From: an uncultured Fodinibius sp.
GTDB lineage: Bacteria > Bacteroidota > Rhodothermia > Balneolales > Balneolaceae
Assembly: GCA_913056235.1 (NCBI GenBank)
Contig: CAJXMW010000001.1
Coordinates: forward strand, 1,488,001-1,552,000
Direction of reading: 5' to 3'
Length of the DNA stretch: 64,000 nt
Shown here: piece by piece, positions 2,237 to 16,034 of the stretch
How positions within the stretch are numbered: the stretch's first letter is position 1
Layout: every line of letters begins with the position of its first letter
Program-made: the position numbers and the translations under genes
The notes under the pieces: model-generated
Seen by the model: only the letters and a program-made list of their open reading frames with translations
The model's database searches: none
Told to the model about the DNA's origin: nothing

Positions 2237-2273
2237 TAAGCTTTACTAAACCTCAGAGGTTTAGTAAAGCTTA
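2237..2273. repeat. Perfect 18-bp palindrome (REP-like), left copy
   Basis: Two 18-base arms (2237-2254 and 2256-2273) are perfect inverted copies about a single central A. The inner core reads TTTACTAAACCTC and its complement. A close relative lies at 2872-2914, on the other side of the transposase remnant. It also overlaps the end of that remnant and could terminate the rightward lipoprotein gene. Confidence 0.85.
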
Positions 2274-12740: not shown

Positions 12741-14510
12741 TTATGCCTTGGTCTTAGCTTGAAACCACTCCATCAGTTCTGTGGCACTTTTGCTATTTAG
12801 GATACGATCGCTGCCAAACTTTGCTTTGCGGGCAATGCGCACGCCGTAGGAAATGTGGTCAATACCTTTTTTGCTGTGCGCATCAGGATTAATAGCCGAC
12901 ATTAATCCCACCTCTTGGGCTTTATTGCCGTGCCGCCAGTCTAAGTCCAGCCGGCGGGGATTCGCATTGATTTCGATAGCCGTATGGTGTTCGGCTGCCA
13001 GTTCGATAAGCTCGTTCATGTCCAGGTCGCTGCCGTCGCGCTGCAGCAACAGGCGTCCGGTCGGGTGGCCAATGATATCGGTATAGGGTTTGGTAATGGC
13101 GTTGCGAAACCGCGTCATCATTTTATCGCGACTCATATCCAGGCCGTTGTGTACGCTGGCAATCACGAAGTCGAAACCTTCCAGGATTTCATCTTCGTAA
13201 TCAAGATTGCCGTCACTGAGAATATCGGATTCGATGCCTTTTAAGATACGAAAGTTGGTTCCGTTTTGGGCAAACTCTTCGTTGATTTGATCAATTTCTT
13301 TCCACTGTTGCTTAATCTCATCCACCGAAAGCCCACCAGCGTAAGCGGCTGTTTGGGAGTGGTCGGTAAGACCAAGGTACTCATATCCCCGCTCGATACA
13401 TGCCTCCGCCATTTCTCGAATCGAGAACTTGCCGTCGCTGTAGGTACTGTGGGCATGCAGTACGCCACGAATGTCATCGTTCTCAACCAGATCTATAGAC
13501 TCGTGGGTCTCAAACAACTCGATTTCGCCGTGATCTTCGCGTAGTTCAGGAAAAATAAAGTGCAAATCCAGATGCTTGTAAATATCAGTTTCTGAGCTGT
13601 AATCGATTGGCATATCAAAATTGGTGTTGCCCTCCTCATCCAGTTCGAAAAGTCCATATTCGTTGAGCGAAAGGCCCCGCTCCCGGGCACGTTGACGAAG
13701 CACTACGTTGTGTTCCTTGCTGCCGGTAAAGTACATCAGCGCGGCGGGAAATTGTTCAGGTTTTACAATGCGGAGATCTACTTGCCGGCCATCTTTGGTT
13801 CGGATGGAGCTCTTGGTGTCGCCCCGTCCCAGCACTTCGACGACCAGTTCGTGATCAACAAAGGCATCAAAGAGATCCTCAATATGCTGCTCGTCCGCAC
13901 CAATCAGGATATCCACATCACCAATTGTTTCTTTGGAGCGCCGCAGTGAGCCGGCCACGTCGATAGCTTCTACGCCTATGCGATCTTTCAGGAAGTTGTA
14001 CATTGGCTTGGCAATTTCGGTAGCTTCGTCGAGGCGGCAGCGCTCGTCGAACTGTTCCATCCACTCGATGGAGCTCAAGATCTTTTGTGCTGATTTTTCG
14101 CCCAGCCCGTCCAGCCCGGCTACGCGCCCATCTTCGCATGCCTCTTTTAATTCATCCAGCTCAGAGATGCCCAGCTGTTTATGAATTTTTGCGATGTTTT
14201 TAGGTCCGAGTCCTGATATATCCAGCCATTGTATAATCCCTTCCGGAATACGTTCGCGCAAACTTTCAAGCACTTCAATTTTGCCGGTCTTGGCGTACGA
14301 TTGAATATCTTCGCCGATGGAATCTCCAATCCCTTTGATATCTGTTAGGCTGTCATTCTCAATGTAATCGTTGATATCGTCATTAAGTGATTCAATGGTT
14401 TGAGCCGCGCGATCAAAAGCAATGGCGCGGAAGCGGTTTTCGCCGGCCAGCTGCATTAGTTGATAAATCTCGCGCAGACGCTCGGCAATTTCGTTGTTGG
14501 TTATGGACAT
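12741..14510 (-). CDS. polX: PolX family DNA polymerase / 3'-5' exonuclease
   Basis: Bacterial PolX fills short gaps and trims 3' ends during base-excision repair. Helix-hairpin-helix motifs ([36 protein letters not shown]) are followed by the family-X palm, with metal-binding Asps in [18 protein letters not shown] and [12 protein letters not shown]-terminal PHP domain from about residue 345 ([55 protein letters not shown]) carries the exonuclease metal site. At 589 residues it is full length. It is convergent with lacI across 19 bases. Confidence 0.95.
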
Positions 14511-14574
14511 AAAATGGATTGATTATCTTTTGGAAGAAATTATTGGATTCGCTGTAAAAATTCTATGACAGATT

Positions 14575-14791
14575 TAACCGCAGAGTTACACTGAGACATT
14601 CACGGAGGGGACACTGAAAAAATATACTTTAGCTTTCAGTAACTCCGCGATTATCTCTGAGTTGTCCATGGTTTTAAATAGAAAGTGGTTGATTAACCAT
14701 AGAGTTGCACGGAGGGATTTGCAGAGGCCACGGAGCAAAATGTATTTATACCCTAAGTTCTCTGTGAAATCCTCTGTTTCCTCTGCGGTTA
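14575..14791. repeat. Paired inverted-repeat element, copy 1 (two ~95-base units)
   Basis: Two successive units (about 14575-14673 and 14694-14791) each form a long imperfect inverted repeat. They start with AACC(G/A)(C/T)AGAGTT(A/G)CAC and end with its rough complement, such as CCTCTGCGGTTA. A spacer containing AAAGTGGTTGATT separates them. The same two-unit layout and spacer recur at 15221-15438, on the other side of the GxxExxY gene. The TAA stop of that gene (14789-14791) lies in the last bases of this element. Confidence 0.85.
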
Positions 14792-15172
14792 GCCATTTTC
14801 AGAATTAATTGCCCGCTTGATACCATCTCTTAAGTGAGCAACATTGAAGTTAATTAAAAGCCCAAGATTAAAGTTTCCTAGCTTCAGATAAGTTAGAGTT
14901 TGTGCTAAATGCACTTCATTTAATGTATCAACAGATTTAAGTTCCAGCACAAGCTTGTTTTCAACTAAGATATCTATTCGATAGCCGCATTCAAGTTTTA
15001 CATCTTCGAATACGAGCGGTATAGGTTTCCCTTTTTTAATGGAATAGCCCGTCCTTTCTAATTTGTAACTTAAACATTCTTGGTAAGCTGATTCTAACAG
15101 GCCGGCTCCCAATGCGGTGTGGACCTGCATGGCATTTTTGATGATACTCCGAGTAAATTTTCTTGAAATCAT
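14789..15172 (-). CDS. GxxExxY protein (PD-(D/E)XK-like)
   Basis: The 127-residue protein contains VHTALGAGLLESAYQECLSYKL, the motif GxxExxY that names the family, then GYRIDILVENKLVLELKSV, a PD-(D/E)XK-type nuclease core with D and ExK in place. Family members are scattered in bacteria and are commonly found among dispersed repeats; their biological role is unknown. Here the gene is bracketed by two copies of a ~220-base repeat, which makes a mobile or formerly mobile cassette likely. It is not part of any operon. Confidence 0.9.
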   Translation of the reverse strand: MISRKFTRSIIKNAMQVHTALGAGLLESAYQECLSYKLERTGYSIKKGKPIPLVFEDVKLECGYRIDILVENKLVLELKSVDTLNEVHLAQTLTYLKLGNFNLGLLINFNVAHLRDGIKRAINSENG

Positions 15173-15220
15173 AGTCTTTTTAAGTAAGACCTATCGGTAG
15201 GGATATCCTTACAAGATTGA

Positions 15221-15438
15221 ATTGCAGAGTTACGCTGAGGCATTTATAGAGAGGACACCGAGAAAAATATGCTTTAGCTCTGAGAAACTCCGCGATTACC
15301 TCTGAGTTCTCTGCGGTTTTTAATAAAAAGTGTTTGTCAACCACAGAGTTACGTGGAAGAATTCGCAGAGAGCGCTGAGAAAAATATATATCTTAACACT
15401 GAGTGACTCCGCCGAATCTTCTGTTTCCTAAGCGGTTA
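15221..15438. repeat. Paired inverted-repeat element, copy 2
   Basis: Two units (about 15221-15321 and 15339-15438) match copy 1 at 14575-14791 closely, in the same order and direction. Shared blocks include CAGAGTTAC(A/G)CTGAG, AACTCCGCGATTA and CTCTGAGTT, with a spacer AAAAGTGTTTGTC comparable to that of copy 1. No gene lies in this stretch. Confidence 0.85.
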
Positions 15439-15533
15439 AAAAATGTAACTCCTAGTTAGAAATGCCCCTTCCCATTTTAGGATTTATGAACCATTTCGTA
15501 TCATCTAGAATTCTTCCCAACAATATTATTTTT

Positions 15534-16034
15534 ATGACAAAATATTTGGTGCTTTTTGGCTTTATCTTGCTGGTTTCGTGCAAAGCCTCCTCGGATGCTC
15601 CGGCACCATCCACAAAAAAAGTAGAGGCTGTGTTGGATGACTGGCACGAAGCGGCCGCCGAGGCTGACTTCGATCGCTATTTTAATCACTTTGCCAGTGA
15701 TAGTGCCATCTTTATGGGTACGGATGCCTCCGAACGCTGGGAGGTCGCTGAATTTCGCCGGTGGGCCCAACCCTATTTTAAGCGCGGCTCGGCCTGGGAC
15801 TTCACGCCGGTTGAGCGTCATGTGTATTTTTCTGATGATGAAAAGATCGCTTGGTTTGATGAGTCGCTCGATACGCCTAATCTGGGTCCGGCACGGGGCA
15901 GCGGAGTGCTCAAACTAAAAGACGGCAACTGGGAAATTGCGCACTATAACCTGTCCATTCCCATCCCCAACGCTATTGTGGATACGGTGGTAAAACAGAT
16001 TGAGCAAGCCCAACAAGATTCTAGCAACAATTAG
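15534..16034 (+). CDS. SnoaL/DUF4440-like lipoprotein
   Basis: The signal MTKYLVLFGFILLVSC gives a lipoprotein with Cys at residue 16. The rest (about 150 residues) has the NTF2/SnoaL cone-fold pattern: VLDDWHEAAAEADFDRYFNHFASDSAIFMGTDASERW, then FTPVERHVYFSDDEKIAWFDE, and GSGVLKLKDGNWEIAHYNLSIPIPN at the end. This is the usual 'DUF4440/nuclear transport factor 2-like' arrangement. Enzyme activity is not implied. The ATG at 15534 is preferred over one at 15462 because it places the signal peptide at the N-terminus. It is followed after 4 bases by the M14 peptidase gene and is probably co-transcribed with it. Confidence 0.85.
   Translation: MTKYLVLFGFILLVSCKASSDAPAPSTKKVEAVLDDWHEAAAEADFDRYFNHFASDSAIFMGTDASERWEVAEFRRWAQPYFKRGSAWDFTPVERHVYFSDDEKIAWFDESLDTPNLGPARGSGVLKLKDGNWEIAHYNLSIPIPNAIVDTVVKQIEQAQQDSSNN

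Follow-up and report, generated by a model that had tools for sequence, protein, structure and literature searches.

The GxxExxY gene that lies between polX and a SnoaL-like gene in an uncultured Fodinibius sp. is part of a discrete insertion of about 0.9 kb which it shares with two copies of a palindromic composite repeat, and across related genomes the words of such repeats co-vary with the clade of the GxxExxY protein. We favour, with confidence slightly above even, an interpretation in which this unit is a selfish single-gene palindrome cassette whose RecB/Cas4-like nuclease would act on cognate hairpins during the handling of single-stranded DNA in competence. The window referred to throughout is the whole stretch of 64,000 nt that was analysed (window position 1 is contig position 1488001); G000 is the genome carrying the cassette, G001 onward are relatives, and L numbers denote loci.

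Table 1 Features of the GxxExxY cassette and its flanks, in window coordinates
Feature	Position	Strand	Basis
Inserted unit, ~0.9 kb, limits approximate	14574..15467		Alignment to empty sites L154, L156, L158
Left composite repeat, units 14576-14676 and 14694-14793	14575..14795		
Right composite repeat, units 15219-15320 and 15337-15438	15218..15441		
GxxExxY / PDDEXK_3 nuclease gene, 127 aa	14789..15172	-	TIGR04256, PF13366, AlphaFold2
TAA stop codon, from end of left repeat	14789..14791	-	Sequence and ORF
Promoter-like motif TGTAAGG-N17-TCTTAC, in interval between right repeat and gene	15184..15213	-	Exact match at G000:C1:1503184-1503213, minus strand
Flanking PolX-type DNA polymerase gene with PHP domain	12741..14510	-	Pfam
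Flanking SnoaL-like gene	15462..16034	+	ORF, Pfam SnoaL_3

The initial annotation had described a gene lying between two direct copies of a composite repeat, each made of two palindromes with a shared spacer, with the stop codon of the gene inside the left copy, and this description is confirmed, the units measuring ~100 nt. The two composites, each ~220 nt, are direct copies that match at 79% in one block of 53 nt and at 84% in another of 74 nt; in each of them a similar spacer connects two units with the pattern AACCRCAGAG...CTCTGYGGTT. The four units of the window align with one solo copy from elsewhere in the G000 genome, and the repeat end GGTTA contains the TAA of the gene on the minus strand. 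The four units in the window are worn, and when each was folded by itself as DNA it did no better than shuffled sequences (z of -0.98, -0.49, -0.13 and 0.22); of the whole composites the left one folds well (z -3.64) whereas the right one does not (z -0.32). A covariance model built from these four units and the solo copy (R1) matched three of the four on the minus strand as well, which is the behaviour expected of inverted repeats. Rfam returned no RNA family at gathering score, and no rRNA, between window positions 14000 and 16000. The ATG at 15534, outside the insert, is the likely start of the SnoaL-like gene. Perfect inverted repeats of 18 and 21 nt with TTTAGTAAA-like arms, found at window positions 2237-2273 and 2872-2973, are unrelated to the cassette.

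The encoded protein scored 134.7 bits against TIGR04256 (GxxExxY; cut-off 35) and 130.9 bits against PF13366 (PDDEXK_3; cut-off 22), its sole Pfam match; it matched no HUH Y1, IVP/S23p or known transposase family. A sequence search found no relative of solved structure at E <= 1. An AlphaFold2 model (pLDDT 95.3) has as its best match among solved structures SSO0001 (4ic1; VIA Z 9.8 over 101 residues at 3.5 A, Foldseek E 4.7e-3), which we take to be a Cas4 nuclease. G24, E27, Y30, D67, E77, K79, Q91 and Y95 were invariant in an alignment of 15 sequences, as would fit an intact RecB/Cas4-type PD-(D/E)XK site, presumably formed by D67, E77 and K79. G000 holds four GxxExxY genes, two of them with an internal stop codon (L071, G000:C8:89915; L072, C1:663013), and in a relative we observed a tandem pair of near-identical GxxExxY genes whose flanks carry long direct repeats (L036, G028:C4:66200-72200).

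Comparison with congeners showed that the ~0.9-kb unit is a discrete insertion between polX and the SnoaL gene in this lineage. The polX gene was present in all 12 genus genomes searched, with the SnoaL gene adjoining it in 7 of 11 congeners; no GxxExxY match (E <= 1) was found in the polX locus of any of the 11, and the 900 nt upstream of polX held 0-2 CRCDRAG words in these genomes versus 15 in G000. In alignments with three empty sites (L154, L156 and L158), homology runs up to 14565-14573 and is regained from 15468-15475 onward; about 10-11 nt of the empty site have no counterpart, and no target-site duplication is evident. Neither these three sites nor the 11 congener polX loci contain a palindrome or a target-like copy of it. 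The opposite arrangement, a gene at a conserved position in relatives lacking the repeats, was sought and not found, all 11 congeners being without the gene upstream of polX.

The repeat units also occur alone. A genome-wide search of G000 with the covariance model, of the kind suggested in the initial annotation, recovered five gene-less copies, none with a GxxExxY match by tblastn within ~2 kb on either side; four fold strongly (z -3.75, -4.62, -4.57 and -3.98), and the fifth has a z of -1.46. Two of these solo copies were examined in congeners and are missing from the same junction in most of them. At the DNA ligase gene the G000 palindrome occupies an intergenic region of 137 nt; in the ten congeners with a match, the corresponding interval is 1-6 nt (five genomes), 25-33 nt (two), 84-89 nt of different sequence (G002 and G011) or 115 nt with another palindrome-like sequence (G004). 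At the trpE-trpS junction, with palindrome types assigned by eye, G000 has a CACAGAG palindrome and G007 a CACAGAG remnant; a GTCAT...TTCAGGATGAC palindrome is found there in 6 of 11 congeners, and G010, G006, G001 and G011 have neither. A GxxExxY gene was present in 8 of 9 genomes with hits to the model versus 22 of 49 without (p 0.026), a comparison made with a model biased to G000. A strict dependence of the palindromes on GxxExxY fails, given that G013 (with a model hit) and G007 (with the CACAGAG remnant) have no such gene.

GxxExxY loci were sampled from two sources, namely 58 genomes belonging to this and related genera, and 80 named contigs. For the contigs, a single pattern near the clade of the window protein had given 575 confirmed matches, of which the best 80 were used. 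The gene occurs in 30 of the 58 genomes at 0-6 copies each, several with internal stops. Among the best 80 of 575, the named contigs are mostly Bacteroidota and many are metagenome bins; Proteobacteria, Cyanobacteria, Chloroflexota, Planctomycetota, Verrucomicrobiota, Acidobacteriota, Spirochaetota and two archaeal bins are also represented. The 300 nt preceding each gene were aligned to the 300 nt following it in reverse complement, a test that took 139 of the 142 GxxExxY genes. Of these 139 loci, 85 scored at least 28 (30 of 63 in relatives and, among the named loci drawn from the best 80 of 575, 55 of 76) and the other 54 scored lower; the same threshold was reached by 7 of 268 neighbouring ORFs (100-450 aa). 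Neighbouring ORFs were taken as the control because shared words inflate a null of mismatched pairs (such nulls kept 65/67, 31/32 for IVP, and 76/80 flank pairs).

The repeat words follow the same inverted arrangement: around the 142 genes, CRCDRAG words are 211 sense and 63 antisense upstream, and 219 antisense and 86 sense downstream. In the 48 loci with words on both sides, an arm scored higher against its own partner than against the arms of other loci (median 40.5 versus 19), and the own partner was the single best arm in 17; the words recur mostly every 9-10 nt. At many loci (L010, L012 and L050, for example) the gene sits exactly in the loop of the palindrome. The window's gene fails a simple inverted-flank test against shuffles (given below), its repeats being direct copies of palindromes. 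The association of GxxExxY genes with inverted repeats is general and spans many phyla, which bears out the initial annotation's remark that such repeats are seen around GxxExxY genes in other genomes; evidence that repeats elsewhere are unrelated to these genes was sought and not found. In several genomes GxxExxY genes sit beside recQ, radC or a succinate-dehydrogenase-type gene. Seven lie directly upstream of recQ (L060, L027, L031, L033, L046, L053 and L066), and in L060 (301-2949, minus strand) GxxExxY and RecQ share one open frame of 883 codons, perhaps a natural fusion.

Repeat words and protein clade co-vary. At least two CRCDRAG words were found at 19 of 26 loci whose protein has the YRxD[LIM] motif and at 0 of 23 loci of the RRADF type (Fisher 3.5e-8), a comparison that omitted three fragmentary loci; 14 of 63 proteins were not assigned to a clade, and 1 of those 14 loci had at least two words. 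We also reconstructed a tree of 45 proteins, with one locus per recurrent site chosen by judgement and including L038, which is not beside radC. The deepest split (SH-aLRT 97) separates 19 loci without the word from 26 of which 17 have it, and the word label requires 6 changes on the tree versus a mean of 14 when shuffled, with none of 500 shuffles as low. A k-mer classifier predicted clade from the repeat arms with an AUC of 0.82, versus 0.59 from distant sequence and at most 0.68 with permuted labels. The arms of IVP and GxxExxY loci, which use different words, were told apart with an AUC of 0.91 (distant sequence 0.65, permuted labels at most 0.67).

The motif in front of the window's gene suggests when the cassette might be expressed. 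TGTAAGG-N17-TCTTAC has 15 exact sites of 30 nt in G000 versus 1 for the reversed pattern, and a motif score of at least 11 of 13 was found upstream of 26 of 66 GxxExxY loci (within 320 nt) versus 3 of 196 other ORFs (within 300 nt). Of the four G000 copies, the window's has the exact motif, two match a relaxed pattern, and the fourth follows a radC gene with an exact site. Genes behind the G000 sites include ComEA-, ComF- and YifB/ComM-like genes, ssb, recA, recN and radC, together with an integron integrase, a REP-type Y1 transposase, IVP/four-helix-bundle genes and several unnamed genes; the ComEA, ComF, RecN, ComM and Y1 assignments scored below NCBIfam full-length cut-offs, RecN and ComM from cut sequences. 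Exact sites number 5-19 in 9 of 10 genomes of the same family and 1 in the tenth, versus 0-1 in three genomes of other families, and G001, G005, G007 and G023 are motif-bearing family genomes without GxxExxY.

In seven genomes (G000, G001, G005, G007, G016, G020 and G023) an exact motif site lies at most 15 nt after an ECF-type sigma gene (Pfam Sigma70_r2, 21.1 bits with a cut-off of 24), a position that would be expected of autoregulation; at L076 (G000:C1:666085-666660) this sigma gene is followed by the motif and an anti-sigma-like gene, and like places occur in the other six genomes. The sigma factor is a candidate master regulator of a competence-type regulon, and in this family the motif very probably identifies DNA-uptake and recombination genes as members of one regulon of the ECF-sigma type. 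It is the gene content that points to competence; taken by themselves, recA, recN and ssb would be compatible with DNA repair as well. An excerpt of PMC6560143 lists comEA, comFA/comFC, radC, ssbB and recA among pneumococcal late-competence genes. Control by the SOS response is not favoured; the motif differs by eye from the Balneolaeota LexA site TTACACATATTTTWTACATA, which is a direct repeat according to an excerpt of PMC7739468, and recA and recN are possibly under both. In G023, recQ itself stands behind the motif without GxxExxY (L380). Given this locus and the single frame of L060, the motif at recQ, radC and sdh sites may be that of the host gene.

Other small genes in the regulon are built alike. 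A census of exact motif sites yielded 125 in 14 genomes (80 of 83 remaining sites were retrieved), of which 94 were classed by similarity to seeds. Host genes accounted for 41 (ssb 9, anti-sigma-like 7, radC 6, comF 4, recA 4, comM 4, comEA 3, recN 3, endA-like 1); the non-host classes were IVP (18), GIY-YIG (17), integrase (7), Y1 (6), DUF559 (3) and GxxExxY (2). Inverted flanks beat all 100 shuffles in 12/17 GIY-YIG, 11/18 IVP, 5/6 Y1 and 1/3 DUF559 sites, and in 2/35 host genes, 0/7 integrases, 1/23 unclassified sites and 0/1 GxxExxY sites (the window's), sites with short flanks (6 host, 6 unclassified, 1 GxxExxY) having been omitted. Taken together, GIY-YIG, IVP and Y1 genes behind the motif are bracketed by palindromes in 28 of 41 cases versus 2 of 35 for host genes. 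When IVP loci were collected by family alone, the motif was present at 13 of 29 (score at least 11, spacing 16-18), and 7 of 31 IVP loci were above 99% of the mismatched null.

For the enzymology and the trigger of the favoured palindrome cassette, we infer the following course. The unit is ordered as palindromes, promoter motif, GxxExxY nuclease gene and palindromes; when the regulon is on and single-stranded DNA is being handled, the repeats would fold into hairpins, the PD-(D/E)XK protein would recognize the words cognate to it, spaced at one per 9-10 nt, and cut or trim the hairpins, and the cassette, along with solo palindromes acting in trans, could then enter new intergenic sites. Several observations count against this reading: the window's units fold poorly singly and its gene fails the inverted-flank test, 54 of 139 loci score below the threshold, G013 and G007 have palindromes without the gene, no target-site duplication was seen, copies occur at shared recQ, radC and sdh sites, and there are the single frame of L060 and the recQ gene behind the motif at L380. 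The initial annotation had proposed a self-contained mobile or selfish cassette. The general association with inverted repeats, the discrete insertion, the solo copies and the pairing with protein clade give this proposal partial support, but because some copies adjoin recQ, radC or an sdh gene in several genomes, not every GxxExxY copy can be recently mobile. That annotation contained neither the promoter-like motif nor the competence-like genes that share it, nor the other gene families of similar build.

The strongest rival is homing timed to transformation, in which the nuclease cuts chromosomes lacking the cassette during DNA uptake, RecA copies the cassette in, and the palindromes serve as a landing pad and not as mobile ends. 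GIY-YIG and PD-(D/E)XK folds occur in known homing enzymes, and the nuclease fold, the occurrence of the motif at recA, ssb and comEA-like genes as well, and the presence of different cassettes at the same junction in different species (radC-argS holds GxxExxY in L070 and IVP in L137) would all suit this scenario. Nevertheless, the window's empty sites have no palindrome or target-like copy, and homing alone leaves the cognate palindromes and solo copies unexplained, so that we give it a modest chance of being correct. One may alternatively postulate that the GxxExxY gene is a passenger on, or later settler of, palindromes spread by another enzyme such as a Y1 transposase. The gene-free palindromes of G007 and G013 fit this, as does the occurrence, in this genome and within the regulon, of a Y1 gene that has REP-like repeats, yet the repeat words follow the GxxExxY clade and differ from IVP words, which makes a passenger unlikely.

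We consider it still less likely that the protein is a host nuclease for DNA processing in competence or repair, with the repeats as regulatory or protective sites. The company it keeps in the regulon, the recQ adjacency at seven loci and the single-frame GxxExxY-RecQ ORF would be in keeping with such a role, but the distribution of the gene is patchy, with variable copy number and internal stops, and the insertion here is clean. An RNA element resembling 23S rRNA intervening sequences (IVS), with the palindrome forming an RNA stem around the ORF, has its precedent in Coxiella, where an excerpt of PMC4990558 places an S23p ORF in the loop of terminal inverted repeats. This is very improbable for the present locus, which is intergenic and has its promoter motif between the upstream arm and the gene, so that this arm would usually lie outside the transcript.

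The cassette resembles several known systems. The initial annotation had compared it with RAYTs acting on REPs. According to an excerpt of PMC8266576, single-stranded REPs are processed by their cognate TnpA-REP, with which they co-evolve; the tnpA-REP gene occurs mostly in single copy, with no evidence that it is mobile. The likeness to such a REPtron (TnpA-REP/RAYT) lies in short palindromes paired with a co-varying DNA-acting enzyme, cleavage being conjectural here, and the comparison holds insofar as repeat type follows protein phylogeny; it breaks down in that the enzyme is PD-(D/E)XK (PF13366) rather than HUH Y1, and in that the gene lies inside or between the palindromes and is inserted with them. 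The Coxiella IVS with its S23p/IVP ORF likewise combines a small ORF in an inverted-repeat loop with short tandem words, which precede the ORF, and is called selfish in the same excerpt of PMC4990558; the GxxExxY cassette differs in its intergenic site between polX and SnoaL, its protein and its own promoter motif. As enzyme and location fail the defining tests of these systems, the cassette is neither a REPtron nor an IVS. Gene-less inverted-repeat inserts at intergenic sites recall MITEs and insertion sequences, but the cassette has no known transposase family by Pfam and no target-site duplication was seen; a small nuclease gene inserted at discrete sites recalls homing endonuclease elements, but here the unit lies between genes and is accompanied by cognate palindromes and solo copies.

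Many genomes contain scattered GxxExxY and 'four helix bundle' genes, for which no role is known. A literature search outside preprints returned papers naming GxxExxY in passing, none linking it to palindromes or competence, and none explaining the repeats around GxxExxY and 'four helix bundle' genes. The testable role proposed here is that the protein and its cognate palindromes form a selfish cassette acting at the time of DNA uptake, and the word sets would offer ready-made substrates for enzymology. More tentatively, there may be a general and hitherto unrecognized class of palindrome cassettes whose vehicle is natural transformation rather than replication or conjugation. Its members would be unrelated small proteins (GxxExxY nuclease, IVP/four-helix-bundle, GIY-YIG and Y1, perhaps also DUF559). 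Each would use a palindrome vocabulary of its own and, in this family, carry the competence-type promoter of the host, and they would spread as hairpins on transformation ssDNA. If so, there would be a class of mobile elements peculiar to natural transformation.

Several individual loci behind the motif deserve mention. GIY-YIG genes at L095, L096, L115, L327, L376 and L392 are flanked by GTCATCCTGAACTTGTTTCAGGATCT-like palindromes, and the same palindrome also occurs alone at trpE-trpS in six congeners. At L085 (G000:C4:55563) a REP-associated Y1 transposase gene has GATGGAGTCCACCT-type palindromes on both sides, and integron integrase genes at L087 (G000:C6:225) and six other sites have no inverted flanks.
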